From an uncultured Lachnospiraceae bacterium (GTDB lineage Bacteria; Bacillota; Clostridia; Lachnospirales; Lachnospiraceae), in assembly GCA_944380185.1 (NCBI GenBank), contig CALWGV010000079.1, forward strand, positions 1 to 59,233: DNA of 59,233 nucleotides, given 5' to 3'. Positions within the stretch are counted from its first letter, which is position 1, and each line of letters begins with the position of its first letter. A model generated the notes under the pieces. The model made no database searches. It had not been told where the DNA came from and saw only the letters and a list, made by a program, of their open reading frames with translations. Both the position numbers and the translations under genes were made by a program. This document shows positions 1,903 to 55,863 of the stretch, piece by piece.

Positions 1903-4056
1903 ATGGCAGTCAGAATTGGAATCGATGTGGGAGGAACCTTTACCGACGCGGTAGCCATTGATAACGATACCTACGAGCTCATCGGTTCGGTCAAAACCCC
2001 CACGACGCACACGGCGCCCGAAGGCGTGGCGGCCGGTATCGTCCAGGTGCTGCACAAGGTGATGGAGCAGTGTCATATCGCGCCGGAGGACGTGGTTTTT
2101 ATCGCCCACGGCACCACCCAGGCCACCAATGCTCTGCTGGAGGGCGATGTGGCGCAGGTGGGCGTCATCACCCTGGGCAAGGGACTTCAGGGAGCCAAGA
2201 GTAAGGGGGACACGACCATCGGGAATATCGAGCTTGCCGAGGGCAAGTATCTGGTATCCAAAAATGCCTATGTGGACACGGGAAACTTAGACCAGCTGGA
2301 TGAGACGATCCGTCAGGCGATCCGCTCGCTGAAGGAGGAGGGCTGCACCAGTTTCGTGGCGGCGGAGGCCTTCAGCGTCGATGATCCGGCCAATGAAAAC
2401 CGCGCGGTGGAGATCTGCGGCGAAGAGAACGTGCCGGCTACAGCCACCAACGATATCTCCAAGCTGTACGGCTTAAAAATCCGCACCAGAACTGCTGTGG
2501 TCAATGCCAGCATCATGCCCAAGATGCTGGAGGCAGCTACGATGACGGATCAGAGCATCAAGGCGGCCGGTATTGAAAGCCCTCTGATGGTGATGCGCTG
2601 CGACGGCGGTGTGATGACGGTGGACGAGGTGCGCCGCCGCCCGATTTTGACCATCCTCTCCGGCCCGGCGGCTGGCGTGGCCGGAGCGCTGATGTATGAG
2701 AAGCTGACCGACGGCATTTTCTTCGAGGTGGGAGGCACCTCCACCGATATCTCCTGCGTCAAGGACGGCAAGGTCATGATTCAGTACGCCGAGGTGGGCG
2801 GACACAAGACCTATTTGAACAGTCTGGATGTGCGCACTGTCGGTATCGGCGGCGGCAGTATGGTACAGATCAAGGACGGCAAGGCCGTGGAGACAGGCCC
2901 CCGCAGCGCCCATATTGCGGGCCTTGAGTATGAGGTCTATACCGATCCGGAGAAGATAGTCAATCCCCGCCTGGTGACGGTGCGCCCTACGCCCACTGAT
3001 CCGGAATACGGCTGCATCGAGTGCGACGGAGGGGTCCGGGTGGCTCTGACCATGGCCGGCGCGGCCAACCTGGCCGGCTATGTGCGCCCGGAGGATTACG
3101 CCTACGGAAATGTGGAAGCGGCAAGGAAGGCCTGGAAGCCTCTGGCCGACAACATGGGCTGTACCGTGGAGGAGGCGGCGCGCAAGGTGATGGCCTTTGC
3201 CGCGGCCAAGAACAGCAAGGTAGCTGCTCAGCTGATGAAGGATTATCATATGGATCCCGCCCAGACCGTCTTCGTGGGCGGCGGCGGCGGAGCGGCCAGC
3301 GTAGTGCCCCATCTGGCGAAGACCATGGGCCATAAGCACCGGATTGCCAAGAACGCTCCTGTTATCTCTACCATCGGCGTAGCGTTGGCCATGGTCCGCG
3401 ATATGGTGGAGCGCAGCGTCACCAATCCCACCCAGGAGGATATCATCAGCGTGCGCCGTGAGGCCGAGCTGAAGGCTATCCAGAACGGAGCCGCTCCGGG
3501 CACCGTGGAGGTCAGCGTGGAGGTGGATACCCAGAGAAATGTGGTGCGGGCCATCGCCGTGGGAGCCACGGAGCTGCGCAGCAAGAACCGTCTGCAGAAA
3601 AAGCTGGAAAAGGACGAACTTTTGGATATCGTGGCGGAGAATCTGAGCGTGCCCAAGGGAGAACTCTCCATCACCGCTGAGAATGGCTCCATGTATGCCG
3701 TACAGTGTGAAAAGAAGCAGAAAAAACTCTTTGGCCTGATGAGCAAGGTGACCCATCCTCTGCGTCTCATCGACGAGGAGGGAGTTATCCGTCTGCAGAA
3801 AAACAACGCCATGGTGAGACAGACCACCGTGGGCGGCTGGGGCAAGGAGCTGGACTACATCCTGGAGGAGCTCACCGAGTACAACGACGGCGGCACCAAT
3901 CTTCCCAATGTCTATGTGATTCTGGGCAAACGTATCGTGGATCTGTCAGGTATGGCGAGCTCGGAGCAGATTGCGAGTCTGGGAAATGTGGAGCTGGCCG
4001 GCTGCGGCCAGGATGAGCCGCTGATTCTGGCGGCCACCCGGCGCGTGGACGCCTGA
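1903..4056 (+). CDS. Hydantoinase/oxoprolinase family protein (HyuA-like subunit)
   Basis: The 717-residue protein belongs to the ATP-dependent hydantoinase/5-oxoprolinase A family of the ASKHA fold. Visible landmarks are the first phosphate loop RIGIDVGGTFTDAV at residues 4-17, the family block HGTTQATNALLEG near 68-80, the second phosphate motif EVGGTSTDIS near 278-287, GIGGGS near 315-320 and a glycine-rich FVGGGGGA block near 460. Family members cleave or carboxylate cyclic amides or ketones with ATP. The usual B subunit is absent from the window, so the enzyme may act alone or with a different partner. The ATG at 1903 is chosen because GGGAGGAAAAG lies upstream and the protein then starts directly with the ATPase motif. 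The substrate is unknown. Confidence 0.85.
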   Translation: MAVRIGIDVGGTFTDAVAIDNDTYELIGSVKTPTTHTAPEGVAAGIVQVLHKVMEQCHIAPEDVVFIAHGTTQATNALLEGDVAQVGVITLGKGLQGAKSKGDTTIGNIELAEGKYLVSKNAYVDTGNLDQLDETIRQAIRSLKEEGCTSFVAAEAFSVDDPANENRAVEICGEENVPATATNDISKLYGLKIRTRTAVVNASIMPKMLEAATMTDQSIKAAGIESPLMVMRCDGGVMTVDEVRRRPILTILSGPAAGVAGALMYEKLTDGIFFEVGGTSTDISCVKDGKVMIQYAEVGGHKTYLNSLDVRTVGIGGGSMVQIKDGKAVETGPRSAHIAGLEYEVYTDPEKIVNPRLVTVRPTPTDPEYGCIECDGGVRVALTMAGAANLAGYVRPEDYAYGNVEAARKAWKPLADNMGCTVEEAARKVMAFAAAKNSKVAAQLMKDYHMDPAQTVFVGGGGGAASVVPHLAKTMGHKHRIAKNAPVISTIGVALAMVRDMVERSVTNPTQEDIISVRREAELKAIQNGAAPGTVEVSVEVDTQRNVVRAIAVGATELRSKNRLQKKLEKDELLDIVAENLSVPKGELSITAENGSMYAVQCEKKQKKLFGLMSKVTHPLRLIDEEGVIRLQKNNAMVRQTTVGGWGKELDYILEELTEYNDGGTNLPNVYVILGKRIVDLSGMASSEQIASLGNVELAGCGQDEPLILAATRRVDA

Positions 4057-6155: not shown

Positions 6156-6896
6156 ATGGCAATTAAGATACCAAAACTGAGTGATTCGGCAAGGGAAGAA
6201 TTTAAGGGAAAGCTTTTAAGCGAGCTGGTCAGCGAGGAATTTCTGGAGATGGCCCGGGACAATACGCAGCCCTGGCGGCAGTTAATGTCCTACTACCGCT
6301 GTGCGATGATGGAGGTGGAGACCAAATTCCGGGTGCTCAACGAGCAGTTTTCGCTGCAGTATGACCGCAATCCCATCGAGACCATCAAGACCCGCCTAAA
6401 GTCCATGGACAGTATTGTCGGCAAGATGAAGAGCAAAAATCTTCCCTTTACTCTTTCGGCTCTGGAGGAGAATATTTTTGATGTGGCGGGGATAAGGATC
6501 ATCTGTTCTTTTCCGGAGGATATCTATATGCTGGCGGACTGTCTGCTCAAGCAGGATGACATTACCCTGATCGAGCGCAAGGATTATATTCAGCAGCCGA
6601 AGAAGAGCGGCTATCGGAGTCTGCACCTGATTGTGGACGTGCCGATCTTTTTGGAGAATGAGAAAAAGCTGATGAAGGTGGAGGTGCAGTTCCGCACCAT
6701 AGCCATGGACTTTTGGGCCAGTCTGGAGCACAAGCTGCGATACAAGAAAGACATCCCGGAGCAGATCGCCGATGAGCTGGCGGCAGAGATGTATGAATGC
6801 GCCGAGATCAGCGCCGAGCTGGACCGCAGGATGGAGGCGGTCCGGGGACGCATCGAGCAGGAGACGGAGCAGAGGATACACGGGCAGACAAAATAG
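6156..6896 (+). CDS. Small alarmone synthetase, RelQ/YjbM-like GTP pyrophosphokinase
   Basis: The 246-residue protein is a stand-alone (p)ppGpp synthetase that transfers pyrophosphate from ATP to GTP or GDP. The RelA/SpoT synthetase core runs from about residue 50 to 195 with DVAGIRIICSF, SGYRSLHLIV and EVQFRTIAMDFWASLEHK. There is no hydrolase, TGS or ACT domain, and the length is near that of RelQ proteins. AAAAGGAG lies upstream of ATG 6156. Residues 215-246 form a charged helical tail, as in the tetrameric RelQ group. It starts its own transcription unit and is followed by a sugar kinase gene. Confidence 0.9.
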   Translation: MAIKIPKLSDSAREEFKGKLLSELVSEEFLEMARDNTQPWRQLMSYYRCAMMEVETKFRVLNEQFSLQYDRNPIETIKTRLKSMDSIVGKMKSKNLPFTLSALEENIFDVAGIRIICSFPEDIYMLADCLLKQDDITLIERKDYIQQPKKSGYRSLHLIVDVPIFLENEKKLMKVEVQFRTIAMDFWASLEHKLRYKKDIPEQIADELAAEMYECAEISAELDRRMEAVRGRIEQETEQRIHGQTK

Positions 6897-49923: not shown

Positions 49924-50115
49924 ATGCCGGCGGGGTGAGGGCATATTGATCACCGGTGTCACGCAGAAACTTTGTGAAAAATACCCATGTGATTATTTGG
50001 CTAAAAAATGGTATACTATTATTATAACTAATAAGGGTACGAACAAATAAAAGACGTCAGAGTTCGTCAGAGACGGGAGCTGACGCTCGTGATTATGGAC
50101 GGAAAGGAGTATGCC

Positions 50116-50640
50116 ATGCTGAAAATCGGTGAGAAGGTGTTGTACGGAGCTGTCGGCGCGTGCACAGTGACGGATATGTGTACAAAGAAGTTCGGGGATG
50201 CAGGCGAGCGGGAGTATTATGTTCTTGTTCCGGTTTATGACAGCAGGACGACTCTCTATGTGCCGGTGGACAATGAAGCGCTGAAGGCAAAAATGAGAAA
50301 GCTGCTGTCGGCGGAGGAGATTGAGGAGCTGATCACTTCGATGCCGGCTGCGGAGAGCTCATGGATTTCTGATGAAAAGGCCCGTCAGGAGCATTTCAAA
50401 AATACATTGCGCAGCGGTGATCGCCGGGCCTTGATCGGGATGACCAAGTCGCTCTATACACACAGAAAAAAGGTGCTGAGCATGGGACGCAAGCCGCATA
50501 TGGCGGATGAGAGAATGTTCAAGGAAGCAGAAAAAATGCTCTGCGATGAATTTGCGGTGGTGCTGGGTATGGAGCCGGGAGAGGTAATGCCTTATATCAT
50601 GGGCAAGCTGGATGGGAAAGAAGCCAAGAAAAAGGCGTAA
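50116..50640 (+). CDS. CarD-like transcriptional regulator
   Basis: The 174-residue protein starts with a CarD/CdnL/TRCF RNA-polymerase-interaction domain (IGEKVLYGAVGACTVTDM, then YYVLVPVYDSRTTLYVPVD) and continues with a helical domain (about 80-170) as in CdnL. It would bind the polymerase beta subunit. ATG 50116 is chosen because AAAGGAG lies 6 bases upstream; the frame from 50089 includes that site. Confidence 0.88.
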   Translation: MLKIGEKVLYGAVGACTVTDMCTKKFGDAGEREYYVLVPVYDSRTTLYVPVDNEALKAKMRKLLSAEEIEELITSMPAAESSWISDEKARQEHFKNTLRSGDRRALIGMTKSLYTHRKKVLSMGRKPHMADERMFKEAEKMLCDEFAVVLGMEPGEVMPYIMGKLDGKEAKKKA

Positions 50641-50709
50641 CAGCAGAATAGATTCGAACACCGTTCAAAACGTATAGGGAAACGAAACCAGATGTCATAA
50701 AATGGATGG

Positions 50710-50748
50710 AGGGTTTGCCGTGAAATTTAACGCGGCAGACCCTTTTTC
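50710..50748 (+). terminator. Terminator after the CarD-like gene
   Basis: AGGGTTTGCCG (50710-50720) pairs with CGGCAGACCCT (50733-50743), followed by TTTT. Confidence 0.9.
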
Positions 50749-50820
50749 TATTTGCTTTTTATATAAAATTGGAGTAAGATAGACCAAGAAAAACGGTGCG
50801 GCAGTCCGAATCAAAAGATT

Positions 50821-50850
50821 TTGTGTATGGGATCTTAATAAAATTATAAG
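50821..50850 (+). promoter_or_regulatory. Possible promoter of the vanG-like operon
   Basis: TTGTGT and TATAAG are 18 bases apart in the AT-rich gap 50749-51009, which holds no gene that I can see and no VanR/VanS or VanU gene. The leader would be about 150 bases. Confidence 0.4.
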
Positions 50851-51009: not shown

Positions 51010-52074
51010 ATGATGAGAAAAAAATTGGGCATTATATTCGGAGGAAAGTCGACAGAATATGAGATATCTTTACAGTCTGCCAGCGCGGTTATTGCAGCGG
51101 TAAATGAGGAAGAATATGAAAAGGTGCTGATCGGCATCGATAGGGAAGGACGCTGGTATCGTTATTACGGTGATGTGGAGAAAATAGAAAAGGATCGCTG
51201 GTGCAACGAGACTGACTGCGTTCGGGCGATTATCTCCCCTGATCGGGAGACTCACGGCATTATGGAGTTTTTCCGCGGCCAGGTGACGATCACAGCTCTG
51301 GATATGGTTTTGCCGGTGCTGCACGGGAAAAACGGTGAAGATGGTACGGTACAGGGGCTCATCGAGCTATCCGGCATTCCGCTGATCGGCTGTGACACGC
51401 TTTGCTCCGCCCTGTGCATGGACAAGGACAGAGCGCATAAGCTGGCGGCTCTGGCAGGCGTATCGGTGCCCGCATCCGCGGTATTCAGCGAGATCGCAGG
51501 AAACGCAGGGGATGAGGAAAGCTGGAAAGAGGCTGCGGCCGGGATCGGTTACCCGGTGTTTGTCAAGCCGGTGCGCGCCGGCTCCTCCTTTGGCGTGACC
51601 AAGGTGAGTGAGGAAGGAAATCTGGTTGAAGCTGTGCGTGAAGCCTTCCGGCACGACAGCGAAGTGATCATCGAGGAAGCGATCGAAGGCTTTGAGGTGG
51701 GCTGTGCTGTCATGGGCAAGGACGAGCTGACGGTGGGCGAGGTGGATGAAATCGAGCTGACCCACGGATTTTTTGATTACACGGAGAAATATACGCTGAA
51801 GACGTCGCGGATCTATGTGCCGGCGCGGATTCGGCCGGAGACGGCTGCCCGCATCAAGGAGACCGCAAAGGTGATCTACCGGGCTCTGGGCTGCCGCGGC
51901 TTTGCCAGGGTGGATATGTTTCTTACTCCCGAGGAGAGGATTGTGTTCAATGAAGTTAATACCATTCCCGGCTTTACTTCACACAGCCGTTTCCCCAGCA
52001 TGATGAAGGCGGCTGGGATATCCTTTGCAGAGGTGGTGGATCGTCTGATTAAAGAGGGGGCGGGGGAAGAATGA
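51010..52074 (+). CDS. D-alanine ligase, VanG-like (probable D-Ala--D-Ser ligase)
   Basis: The 354-residue ATP-grasp enzyme has the Ddl/Van N-terminal IIFGGKSTEYEISLQSA, the LPVLHGKNGEDGTVQG block, the ATP-site GYPVFVKPVRAGSSFGV and the metal-binding NEVNTIPGFTSHS. In the omega loop the residues are FFDYTEKYTLKTS, with E259-K260-Y261; the EKY form is that of the VanC/E/G serine ligases rather than the AKY/KKY form of ordinary Ddl. The two genes behind it, overlapping by 4 bases and 1 base, are the other VanG-operon enzymes. An ordinary Ddl activity cannot be excluded. ATG 51010 follows AGGGG; 51013 is possible. Confidence 0.82.
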   Translation: MMRKKLGIIFGGKSTEYEISLQSASAVIAAVNEEEYEKVLIGIDREGRWYRYYGDVEKIEKDRWCNETDCVRAIISPDRETHGIMEFFRGQVTITALDMVLPVLHGKNGEDGTVQGLIELSGIPLIGCDTLCSALCMDKDRAHKLAALAGVSVPASAVFSEIAGNAGDEESWKEAAAGIGYPVFVKPVRAGSSFGVTKVSEEGNLVEAVREAFRHDSEVIIEEAIEGFEVGCAVMGKDELTVGEVDEIELTHGFFDYTEKYTLKTSRIYVPARIRPETAARIKETAKVIYRALGCRGFARVDMFLTPEERIVFNEVNTIPGFTSHSRFPSMMKAAGISFAEVVDRLIKEGAGEE

Positions 52075-52838
52075 CCGTGCTCACTTTGTCAGCGGAGGAC
52101 CGTCACCACGGCGATCTGATCCTGGTCAATCGCAGCTATCCCCTGCACGGTACGGCCCTGGTCAGGCGGGGAGATCTGGAGACGCAGCTGATGGCGGCAG
52201 ATCCTGCCTGGCCGGAGGTCCTTCTGGCCCGCCCGGCGGCTCTGGCTCTCCAAAGGGCGATGCGTGATCTGGGGGCCGAGGGAAAAATCGTACCGGTCAG
52301 CGGTTATCGCAGCCGCGAAGAACAGGAAAAAATCTACCGGGACAGCCTGGAAGAAAATGGCCCGGAATTTACGAAAAAGTATGTGGCTCTTCCCGACCGC
52401 AGCGAGCATCAGACCGGTCTGGCTATCGATCTGGGCGAGGGAGGAGCGGAGCTGGATTTTATCCGCCCCTCTTTTCCGGACGACGGGATCTGCGGTCTTT
52501 TTAAAAAAGAAGCAGCCCGTTATGGTTTTGTGCTCCGCTATCCGAAAGGACGGGAGGCGGTGATGGGGATTGCTTATGAACCCTGGCACTTCCGCTATGT
52601 GGGGTGTCCCCATGCCTCCATTATGGCGGAAAAGGGGATGGTTCTGGAGGAATATCTGGAATATCTGGAAAACTGCGCCGATGGCCTTACTTGGGCGGAA
52701 GGAGAAAATTTGGCGGAGATTCGCTACATACATGGCGGAGAAAACGGGACAGAGATCGCTGTGCCGGAGAATTGCCCATATCAGGTGTCGGGAGATAACC
52801 GGGAGGGCTTTATCATAACGGTCTGGAGGAGACGCTGA
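52071..52838 (+). CDS. M15B D,D-peptidase, VanXY-like
   Basis: The 255-residue protein is an M15B zinc peptidase with SGYRS near residue 76, SEHQTGLAID holding H113 and D120, and the catalytic EPWH with E170 and H173. The combination with KYVALP upstream and RYVGCPHA downstream resembles VanXY, which splits D-Ala-D-Ala and trims D-Ala from pentapeptide precursors. No signal peptide is visible, so it acts in the cytoplasm, as VanXY does and VanY does not. About 55 extra C-terminal residues (NCADGLTWAEGEN onwards) form a small beta-rich tail. Confidence 0.87.
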   Translation: MTVLTLSAEDRHHGDLILVNRSYPLHGTALVRRGDLETQLMAADPAWPEVLLARPAALALQRAMRDLGAEGKIVPVSGYRSREEQEKIYRDSLEENGPEFTKKYVALPDRSEHQTGLAIDLGEGGAELDFIRPSFPDDGICGLFKKEAARYGFVLRYPKGREAVMGIAYEPWHFRYVGCPHASIMAEKGMVLEEYLEYLENCADGLTWAEGENLAEIRYIHGGENGTEIAVPENCPYQVSGDNREGFIITVWRRR

Positions 52839-55333
52839 TGGGAGCTTTGGATTGGTTTCGACTCATTGCAGCTTTTCTGGTGACAGCGATTCATATATCG
52901 CCCCTGGAGGACCTGAGTCTGTGGGGGGATCTGACGCTGACCCGCATCGTGGGAAGAGTAGCCGTACCTTTTTTCTTTATGGTGACAGGCTATTTTGTCC
53001 TGGCGGGGAGCAGAGGGGATAAGATCAGACGCTCCCTGGTTAAAAATCTCAAATGGTATCTGCTTGCCATAGTGATCTATCTGCCGATCAACTGGTATGC
53101 GGGCAATCTGTCCGGACTGACTGTGCCTGCCGTATTGGAAGAACTGCTGATCCAGGGCACCTTTTATCATCTGTGGTATCTGCCGGCTTTGCTTACGGGG
53201 CTTCTTCTGTGCTGGGGGCTGAAACGGCTTTTGGGCACCCGCGGTGCTCTGGCCGTGTCTGCTTTTTTGTATATCATCGGGCTGATGGGAGACAGCTATT
53301 ATGGGCTGGCTGCGCAGATTCCGGTGCTGAAGGCTTTTTATGACGGTATGTTTGCGGTGACGGAGAATACGCGAAACGGCCTTTTCCTGGCGCCGATATT
53401 TCTGATGATGGGAGCCTGGTTCGGGGAGAGCAGCCAGCAAAATGAAAAGGAGAGGCGCCGATTTGCTCCGCCGAAGGATTTTCTGTTCTGGGGGCTGGGC
53501 CTTGCGTTCAGCCTGGCGGCTATGACGGCGGAGGGGCTGTATGTCCATTTGGCTGGATGGCCTCATCATGACAGCATGTATCTGCTGCTGCCGGTGACGA
53601 TGACTTTCCTGTTTGGCTCGCTGATTCGTCTTCCTGCAAGAGAAAGACCCCTGTTTCGCAGCGTTTCCCTGTGGATCTATCTGCTGCATCCCTTCTTTAT
53701 CGTGGTAGTGCGGGCTTTTGCTCGGGTCACACGGACGACGGACATCCTGGTGGACAACAATCTGGTCCACTATATCTGTGTTGCCCTTGCCTCTGCGGTG
53801 ACCGCTTATCTTCTGGCTCTGTTTACCAGACTCTGGTCGCAGAGACGGCAGGCAGCGGCGGTTCGGCGCAGCCTATACCAAAATCGGGAGCTTGGCCGAA
53901 AAAAAGCGACGGAAGAAAACACGGATCACGGCGATTCCGATATGAAAGATCCGGGCGGAGAGGGTTTGCGCGAAGACAATTTTGCTGCGGACGATCTGGA
54001 AACTGCCGGGGAACTCGCCCCGGATGCGGACAGAACGGGGGATGGCAGCAAATCGTTTTTTTCGCCTGTTTATGAAGAAAAAACGTCTGAGGAGCAGACT
54101 ATGGAAAGTGAAAATATTGGAAAGGTCCGGGACGATGATGCTTGGGCAGTGATGAGGGCGCAGGAGAGGAGGAACGGGACAGAGATGGCACAGGGAAAAC
54201 GTGCGTGGATTGAAGTGAGCATGGATGCTCTGGCGACAAATGTCGCTCAGTTTCGTCAGCTTTTGTCGGAGGGCAGTCGGATTATGGCGGTGTTAAAGGC
54301 CGATGCCTACGGTCACGGAGCCGTGCCGGTCGGCCTGTTTTTGGAAAAACTGGGCATTACGGATTTTGCCGTGGCAACGGCGGATGAGGGAGCAGAGCTT
54401 CGCCGCGGCGGAATCTCCGGTCAGATCCTGGTCCTGGGCTATACGGACCCTGCCCAATGGGAAGAGGTGCGCAGCTATGATCTGATTCAGGCGGTGGTGG
54501 ATGAGGAATATGCGGCCAAAATGAGCCGGTACGGCTGTGAGAAGGGGGTACTGCGGGCCCATCTGGCCGTGGATACGGGAATGCATCGTCTGGGAATTGA
54601 TGCCGGCGATATTCGGGCCGTGCAGAGGGTTCTGCGGCTGCCCGGCATTCAGATCGAAGGCATATTCAGCCATATGAGCGTGGCAGACAGTCGGCAGCCG
54701 GACAATGTGGAATATACGGCAGATCAGATCCGCCGTTTTGACGGTCTGAAAAAATGGCTGGAGGAGAGCCGTGCCAAGACAAGAGAGCCGGGTCTTGTCT
54801 ATCATCTGCAAAACAGCTATGGCTTTTTAAATTACCCGCAGCTGCGATATGATTTTGTACGGCTGGGAATTGTCCTCTATGGCGTCTGCAGCAGCGGCGA
54901 AGATCTGCCGCAGATCAATCCCGGTCTGGAGCCGATGATGAGTGTCCGAGCGCGGGTGGCGATGGTTCGTGATATGGAGGCAGGCCAGGATTTGGGATAC
55001 GGCAGAGCCTTCCATGTGGAGAAGGACGGCAGGATGGCTGTGGTGTCTATCGGCTATGCCGATGGCATACCCAGGAATTACGGTCAGGGAGGAGCCCAGG
55101 TACTGATCCGCGGACGGCGCTATCCGGTGGTGGGCTTAGTCTGCATGGATCAGCTGCTGGTGGACATATCGGCGGATACAGAGAGAGCTATCGTCTCCGG
55201 CGATGTGGTGACGCTGATTGGCCGGGACGGCGGCGCGTATATCAGCGCCGAGGAATCCGCAGCCTGGTGCGGCACCATCACCAATGAACTTCTCTGCCGG
55301 ATGGGTGCCAGACTGGAGCGAATACGGCTGTAA
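52838..55333 (+). CDS. Membrane serine/alanine racemase, VanT-like
   Basis: The 831-residue protein joins an acyltransferase-3-like membrane domain (about 1-340, some ten segments) to a fold-III PLP racemase (about 455-831). PLP Lys487 lies in AVLKADAYGHG and the catalytic Tyr721 in DLGYGRAF. Asn816 in GTITNELLC stands where alanine racemases have Tyr354 (TINYEVPC); the matching Asn696 of VanT-G is known to allow serine. It would take up and racemise L-Ser for the ligase. The acidic linker of about 110 residues makes it longer than VanT-G (712). The start overlaps the VanXY-like stop by one base. Confidence 0.9.
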   Translation: MGALDWFRLIAAFLVTAIHISPLEDLSLWGDLTLTRIVGRVAVPFFFMVTGYFVLAGSRGDKIRRSLVKNLKWYLLAIVIYLPINWYAGNLSGLTVPAVLEELLIQGTFYHLWYLPALLTGLLLCWGLKRLLGTRGALAVSAFLYIIGLMGDSYYGLAAQIPVLKAFYDGMFAVTENTRNGLFLAPIFLMMGAWFGESSQQNEKERRRFAPPKDFLFWGLGLAFSLAAMTAEGLYVHLAGWPHHDSMYLLLPVTMTFLFGSLIRLPARERPLFRSVSLWIYLLHPFFIVVVRAFARVTRTTDILVDNNLVHYICVALASAVTAYLLALFTRLWSQRRQAAAVRRSLYQNRELGRKKATEENTDHGDSDMKDPGGEGLREDNFAADDLETAGELAPDADRTGDGSKSFFSPVYEEKTSEEQTMESENIGKVRDDDAWAVMRAQERRNGTEMAQGKRAWIEVSMDALATNVAQFRQLLSEGSRIMAVLKADAYGHGAVPVGLFLEKLGITDFAVATADEGAELRRGGISGQILVLGYTDPAQWEEVRSYDLIQAVVDEEYAAKMSRYGCEKGVLRAHLAVDTGMHRLGIDAGDIRAVQRVLRLPGIQIEGIFSHMSVADSRQPDNVEYTADQIRRFDGLKKWLEESRAKTREPGLVYHLQNSYGFLNYPQLRYDFVRLGIVLYGVCSSGEDLPQINPGLEPMMSVRARVAMVRDMEAGQDLGYGRAFHVEKDGRMAVVSIGYADGIPRNYGQGGAQVLIRGRRYPVVGLVCMDQLLVDISADTERAIVSGDVVTLIGRDGGAYISAEESAAWCGTITNELLCRMGARLERIRL

Positions 55334-55356: not shown

Positions 55357-55863
55357 ATGAGTCAGTCGCTTCTTACCACGCTCTGTTATCTTGAACAGGG
55401 CGGAAAATATCTGATGATGCACCGGGTAAAAAAGGAGAAGGATGGAAACCGGGACAAATGGATCGGGATCGGCGGACACTTTGAGAAGGGCGAGAGTCCG
55501 GAGGAGTGTCTCCTCAGGGAGGTGCGGGAGGAGACCGGTCTCATCCTGACCCGGTACCGCTTTCGGGGGCTGGTAACCTTTTCCTCCGGCGATTGGCAGG
55601 AATATATGTGTCTGTATACGGCCGATGAGTTTGCGGGAGACCTGACACCGGAGCGGATGAAGGAATGCGCTGAGGGCGAGCTGGTCTGGGTGGATAAGGC
55701 GGCCATAGGCGAGCTGAACATCTGGGAGGGCGATCGGATTTTCCTTCGTCTTCTGGCGGAGGAACGGCCGTTCTTTTCCCTGAAGCTGCGCTACGACGGC
55801 GACCGGCTCGTGGAGGCGGCGCTGGACGGAGGACCGCTCCGACTGCCGCAGGACGATATATAG
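55357..55863 (+). CDS. Nudix hydrolase (MutT/8-oxo-dGTPase-like)
   Basis: The 168-residue protein has a full Nudix box, GHFEKGESPEECLLREVREE then TGL, near residues 40-63, preceded by KWIGIGG as in MutT-type 8-oxo-dGTP phosphatases. It would clean oxidised nucleotides. Two tandem copies of TAAGGGAGGA (55331-55340 and 55343-55352) precede the ATG, so the ribosome site is duplicated. It trails the van-like genes by 23 bases and may be co-transcribed. Confidence 0.88.
   Translation: MSQSLLTTLCYLEQGGKYLMMHRVKKEKDGNRDKWIGIGGHFEKGESPEECLLREVREETGLILTRYRFRGLVTFSSGDWQEYMCLYTADEFAGDLTPERMKECAEGELVWVDKAAIGELNIWEGDRIFLRLLAEERPFFSLKLRYDGDRLVEAALDGGPLRLPQDDI

Follow-up and report, generated by a model that had tools for sequence, protein, structure and literature searches.

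VanG-type gene set and its described counterparts

Clusters of van genes are mostly seen as inducible, dispensable resistance determinants, and those of the VanG-like type in Clostridia have been described as cryptic or incomplete. A canonical vanG operon is marked, among other things, by tandem VanR boxes upstream and by low-level resistance that vancomycin induces. In the vanG operon of Enterococcus faecalis BM4518, the genes of the ligase VanG, the peptidase VanXYG and the racemase VanTG follow one another, and the same order was found in the stretch of DNA described here (the window; 59,233 nucleotides), the complete contig C79 of the draft genome G000 (2.91 Mb, 112 contigs, 84% complete) of an uncultured Lachnospiraceae bacterium. 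The best matches of the three window proteins in the PDB, 4fu0, 4f78 and 4ecl, are presumably the E. faecalis VanG-type proteins. E. faecalis, as we assume, keeps its own alanine racemase gene alr, whereas in the window's genome no alr-family gene besides VanT was found. According to PMC4405338, the E. faecalis operon has adjacent genes vanU, vanR, vanS, vanY and vanW; none of these was found adjacent to the window set. Clostridium acidurici 9a, as described in PMC3519856, resembles the window's genome in that VanRS and VanY lie apart from the VanG-XY-T genes, but differs in having VanW and a second VanR within its enzyme cluster. In the trees, the window's ligase and racemase share their sides with the ones from vanG-like clusters of other Clostridia, C. 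difficile included.

It is probable (about 0.7) that the window carries a chromosomally fixed VanG-type set in a genus that has lost its housekeeping alr, and that VanT now supplies both D-Ala and D-Ser. As read from sequence, this proposal is built on gene content, the clades and active-site residues of the enzymes, the lack of alr at its usual locus, synteny and purifying selection.

Three open, complete open reading frames (ORFs) occupy positions 51010–55333; the ligase and peptidase ORFs share 4 bases, and the peptidase and VanT ORFs share 1 base. The first (51010..52074, + strand) encodes a VanG-clade ligase of the D-Ala:D-Ser type, 354 amino acids long, with an EKY loop and an SRFP motif. 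It passed the NCBIfam VanG model NF000091 (557.9 bits, cut-off 495). The best solved structure, 4fu0, is named 'D-alanine--D-alanine ligase 7' in the PDB, although we take it to be the VanG ligase, and its FFDYTEKYTLK loop is identical. In a tree of 59 ligases (all trees were built by a quick method without bootstrap, with support given as the Shimodaira–Hasegawa-like approximate likelihood ratio test, SH-aLRT), the window ligase is on the VanG side (49 rows, SH-aLRT 99) together with C. difficile VanG, and the six Ddls of the genus and VanA branch apart, the deep joins being made unsure by one very long extra row, L079_VanG_138.

The genus was sampled by seven draft genomes: the window's genome G000, G065, G299, G300, G301, G302 and G303. 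The ligase of G302, split into two pieces in different frames in its assembly, and the Ddl of G303, reported in two stretches, were left out of the tree. The motifs FFDYTEKYT and GFTSHSR[FY]P are present in every VanG ligase of the genus that is readable whole (five), whereas the six genus Ddls read have FYDYDAKYN and GFT[SD]ISMYP, that is, AKY and SMYP. The loop and the SRFP motif agree with D-Ala-D-Ser as the predicted product of the ligase. The second ligase of the window's genome, on contig C102, is an ordinary, intact-looking Ddl adjoining a glutamate-racemase-like gene recognised by eye. A role of the set's ligase as a second housekeeping Ddl was rejected on the basis of the tree and of the loop and SR[FY]P motifs.

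Ligases over the VanG cut-off were found in 43 of 299 sampled genomes of the family. Other features of these ligases were observed in individual genomes. At L079 (G204), a second, very divergent ligase-like gene (position 1981; 138 bits; FYDYKNKYQ) is located 3.7 kb upstream of the VanG ligase. The VanG ligase frames of L078 (G144; position 6418) and L085 (G256; position 3576) are 654 and 533 amino acids long, compared with the usual 350, possibly through an N-terminal fusion or a wrong start.

The second ORF (52071..52838, + strand) encodes a VanXY-like D,D-peptidase of the M15B type, 255 amino acids long. It matched Pfam VanY (PF02557; 104.6 bits) and, best in the PDB, 4f78, with the SEHQTGLAIDLG and EPWHFRYVG stretches aligned; it missed the curated VanXY-G cut-offs (243 against 500 for NF000149, vanXY_G, and 204.8 against 250 for NF000380). 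At the locus of G300 (L108, 8858-12641), no VanXY was detected between the ligase and VanT, which follows the ligase directly; pairs lacking VanXY also occur at further loci of the family, L051, L056 and L060 among them. A second, weak VanY-domain match in the window's genome (G000:C38:176957-177226, L091; a 460-amino-acid frame, 21.9 bits) exceeds the Pfam cut-off only together with its neighbours.

The third ORF (52838..55333, + strand) encodes VanT of 831 amino acids, composed of an Acyl_transf_3 domain (PF01757) at residues 3–327 and Ala_racemase N and C domains (PF01168, PF00842) at 460–829. The racemase domain begins at about residue 454, behind a linker of about 115 amino acids (window 53840-54190) that is acidic by eye and evolves fast (ratio of nonsynonymous to synonymous substitution rates, dN/dS, 0.50). 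The vanT-G-Cterm model NF033131 was barely passed (460.6, cut-off 460; 468.6 for VanT of G065), and the full-length vanT-CELN model, which was made for the C, E, L and N types, was missed (602.8 against 900). The best PDB match, 4ecl, is named 'Serine racemase'. In the racemase tree, built without the partial VanT L053, the 21 ordinary Alrs are gathered on one side (SH-aLRT 100); VanT of the window groups with the VanTs, among which those of the six genus members cluster together (SH-aLRT 100).

The columns of the catalytic Lys and Tyr are invariant across the 45 VanT and 21 Alr rows. Another column, which we take to be Tyr354 of Alr, contains Tyr in 21/21 ordinary Alrs and Asn in 43 of 45 VanTs, as well as in the two rows first cut short (L109 and L111); Asn is present in all six VanTs of the genus. 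VanTG is said, in an mBio abstract of 2015, to racemise Ala at least as well as Ser. PMC8541618 and PMC11326576 name VanT a 'serine/alanine racemase', and PMC9558356 mentions a proposed role of its membrane domain as an L-Ser transporter.

An earlier note on this DNA had described three genes overlapping by 1–4 bases, coding for a ligase with the EKY form of the omega-loop, a cytoplasmic VanXY-like M15B peptidase and a VanT-like membrane racemase with Asn in place of Tyr354, and the gene overlaps, the identities of the enzymes and the Asn are borne out by the sequence. The grouping of the ligase with Ddl, which that note had named as contrary to its reading, was not found.

A return of the set to D-Ala-D-Ala only, in which VanT would be just an alanine racemase and the ligase would duplicate Ddl, is highly improbable: a fixed locus would fit such ordinary physiology, as would the lack of a detected VanXY at the G300 locus, but Asn is kept at position 354 in all six VanTs, EKY and SR[FY]P are kept in the five whole-read ligases against AKY and SMYP in the Ddls, and an intact-looking Ddl is retained in addition.

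VanT and the vacant alr locus

In the window's genome, one match to PF00842 (Ala_racemase_C) and one to the alr model TIGR00492 were obtained, both of them VanT. The earlier note had suggested a search of the genome for a second ddl and a second alr: the separate Ddl on C102 answers the former, and no alr besides VanT was found with these two models. TIGR00492 gave exactly one match in each of the seven genomes of the genus. In six of them, which are drafts with a completeness of 72–98%, this match is the long frame of VanT. In the seventh, G299, it is an ordinary Alr of 373 amino acids; the genome also has an ordinary Ddl, and no ligase near the VanG cut-off was found in this 86% complete assembly. 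Other genomes of the family with such sets differ: TIGR00492 matched an alr-family gene apart from the van locus in 44 of 44 (in 41 of them the ligase passes the VanG cut-off and in three it falls below; C. difficile is outside this count). Twenty of the 44 racemases were fetched, and all belong to the Alr clade with Tyr at position 354. Window VanT shares the Pfam domains and the catalytic Lys and Tyr with housekeeping Alr, whose place it fills in the gene inventory, unlike which it has Asn for Tyr at 354, a fused membrane domain and a position on the other side of the tree. In G281, the sole alr match other than VanT is a partial, weak one beside a Ddl-kind ligase (G281:C68:8095-10324), perhaps a decaying alr.

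The usual alr locus is recognisable by its neighbours. In G299 the order is AnsA-Rex-Alr-MazF-YebC. In stretches of 6.5–7 kb around ordinary alr from 20 loci of the family, MazF adjoins alr in 19, and Rex and YebC are present in 15 and 16, respectively. A MazF relative with 83–87% identity to MazF of G299 is present in all seven genomes of the genus. The locus is assembled in the six VanT genomes, with Rex and MazF in 6/6 and AnsA and YebC in 5/6 each, owing to contig ends; between Rex and MazF only AcpS was seen in all six, and tblastn with Alr of G299 gave nothing better than E 1.8. Since the locus is assembled without alr in all six genomes, the absence of alr from it is not an assembly gap. 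The six VanT genomes were grouped in a tree of Rex, MazF and YebC (24 of 27 loci, those with two or more of the genes) with a support of only 17, so that alr may have been lost once or repeatedly.

That a housekeeping alr is present in these genomes and was missed is very unlikely. Completeness of 72–98% leaves room for it, and TIGR00492 gave no match in the control C. glutamicum, which presumably has an alr; the alr locus itself, however, is assembled without the gene in all six genomes, and the same search found an alr-family gene outside the van locus in each of the 44 comparison genomes. The class-IV aminotransferase model (Aminotran_4) gave one match each in G000 and G065. A D-amino-acid transaminase as the source of D-Ala in the window's genome was rejected, its only Aminotran_4 match being an ilvE. 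In the literature searched, from which subscription papers were mostly missing, no description of VanT as the sole alanine racemase was found.

Chromosomal place and expression of the set

The order YlmH-CarD-ligase-(VanXY)-VanT was found in the window, G065, G300, G301 and G302; the short contig of G303 contains the three van genes only. The upstream neighbour conserved in the genus is a gene for a CarD-like regulator (50089..50640, + strand; PF02559, synteny). Downstream, a NUDIX hydrolase gene (55357..55863, + strand; PF00293, synteny) follows the van genes in the window and in three other genomes (G065, G300 and G302); none was found in G301. The comparison of the window with G065 gave dN/dS values of 0.052 (ligase), 0.134 (VanXY), 0.050 (membrane part of VanT) and 0.094 (racemase part of VanT); the reference genes gave 0.088 (Ddl), 0.033 (Rex) and 0.061 (CarD), so that the ligase and the two VanT parts are Ddl-like. 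The van genes have a single chromosomal place beside CarD in the genus and are under purifying selection, and the synteny speaks against recent plasmid transfer. Among named records, the two nearest to the ligase are metagenome bins of uncultured Lachnospiraceae (80 and 87% identity), and all 508 matching plasmid records are below 60% identity. The plasmid collection includes a 4.9-Mb E. coli record, NZ_CP134663.1, with a vanG label at 37.5% identity, which is probably a chromosome with its own Ddl.

None of VanR, VanS, VanU, VanW or a further VanY was detected among the 42 window ORFs scanned with Pfam, a scan that did not cover some small ORFs; VanW and VanU were sought in the window only. 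The earlier note had described the set as lacking VanR and VanS, which is correct for the window ORFs scanned and does not extend to the genome: contig C60 encodes VanR, which scored 377.9 bits (cut-off 350), and a VanS-like kinase, which at 329.8 bits stayed below its cut-off of 400. With a C39-peptidase-like gene following, they form a trio (L045, G000:C60, 10545-13504), which is also present on contig C167 of G065 (L112). As a C39 relative adjoins van genes in 2 of 45 loci drawn (L065 and L082), the trio may once have been linked to van genes. By eye, the C60 trio is located upstream of genes for a methionine-type ABC transporter and glycine cleavage.

In other genera, too, VanR is often not linked: a match of more than 290 bits is located within 5.5 kb upstream in 24 of 42 loci and is absent from 18, in some cases through contig ends. 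The published VanR-box consensus at up to 3 mismatches was uninformative, and a matrix was built from 15 sites in relatives instead. VanR-box pairs with an 11-base period and scores of 20–30 bits are present upstream of the ligase in 11 of the 42 relatives. In the window, the search gave one weak VanR-box-like half site, TCTTAATAAAAT (50833..50844, + strand; single-site p=0.035), and a pair of 9.5 bits (p=0.10); the pairs of G065, G300, G302 and G301 scored 8.0, 5.2, 1.9 and 12.0 bits, the last with p=0.015.

These data bear on a second explanation, in which the set is a normal inducible resistance operon of the VanG type with its VanRS merely unlinked on C60, VanT is induced only by glycopeptides, and the cell takes up its D-Ala or makes it with another pyridoxal-phosphate (PLP) enzyme. 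It would agree with the VanR over the cut-off and the VanS-like kinase on C60, the similar pair on C167 of G065, the weak upstream site and the 18 relatives that have no adjacent VanR either; a split arrangement is also found in C. acidurici, with a minimum inhibitory concentration of about 20 ug/ml (PMC3519856). It does not explain the loss of alr at the usual locus in 6/6 VanT genomes, against a separate alr-family gene in 44/44 others, and it is at odds with the low pair scores in the window, G065, G300 and G302 compared with those of the 11 relatives, and with the undetected VanXY at the G300 locus. We regard it as unlikely.

Other signals upstream of the set are few. A hairpin like an intrinsic terminator (50708..50745, + strand; one found against a mean of 0.3 in shuffled sequences) is located 3' of the CarD gene and divides the van genes from the upstream genes. 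A consensus promoter scan upstream of the van genes gave no promoter. By eye, the alignment suggests TTGCTT-17-TAAGAT (50752..50780, + strand) as a candidate promoter, in a block conserved in the window, G065 and G302. Rfam gave no match in the window at gathering thresholds, nor in the 461-base leader at E up to 1.

Proposed role of VanT in D-Ala and D-Ser supply

From these features we infer dual substrate use by VanT, expression of the set and D-Ser termini, under the proposal that VanT has taken the place of Alr. VanT would make D-Ser as well as the D-Ala that is used by Ddl and at the first position of D-Ala-D-Ser; the ligase would join D-Ala to D-Ser, and VanXY would trim D-Ala-D-Ala. 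Cell growth requires D-Ala. A cell with Ddl, in which neither alr nor a D-amino-acid transaminase was found, would need VanT for D-Ala, and therefore vanT would be expressed without vancomycin. Because vanT is the last gene, behind those of the ligase and VanXY, basal expression of all three would be the simplest arrangement, and expression of the set is probably basal or constitutive. Some precursors would then probably always end in D-Ser, beside the D-Ala-D-Ala made by the retained Ddl, and the cell wall probably depends on VanT. The role in normal physiology that the earlier note had suggested for the set gains support at the sequence level.

Several points weigh against this proposal. AcpS is also found near alr in 2 of the 20 family loci, so it is no mark of replacement by itself and need not have displaced alr. 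Asn retained at position 354 means that the pocket of the genus VanTs has not reverted to the Alr form. The VanRS pair on another contig and the weak VanR-like site upstream may point to induced expression, and D-Ala may also be taken up or be made by a moonlighting PLP enzyme. The window's genome is a draft (84% complete), the lack of a van set in G299 is not firm at 86% completeness, and TIGR00492 can miss an Alr. The proposal itself comes from sequence.

A further-reaching form of the proposal, to which we give an even chance, describes a lineage with the van module in its core cell-wall pathway: D-Ala and D-Ser would both come from VanT as an essential enzyme, the operon would be constitutive and no longer losable, D-Ala-D-Ser would be a normal terminus, and glycopeptide tolerance would be intrinsic. 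If alr has been replaced by a van racemase, this would explain the retention of the set without drug selection and would represent a route from a resistance-type gene to an essential gene. The supply of D-Ala by VanT alone, and peptidoglycan ended by D-Ser as a normal state, become testable. For surveys of metagenomes, it would be a caution that such sets are not to be called acquired resistance.

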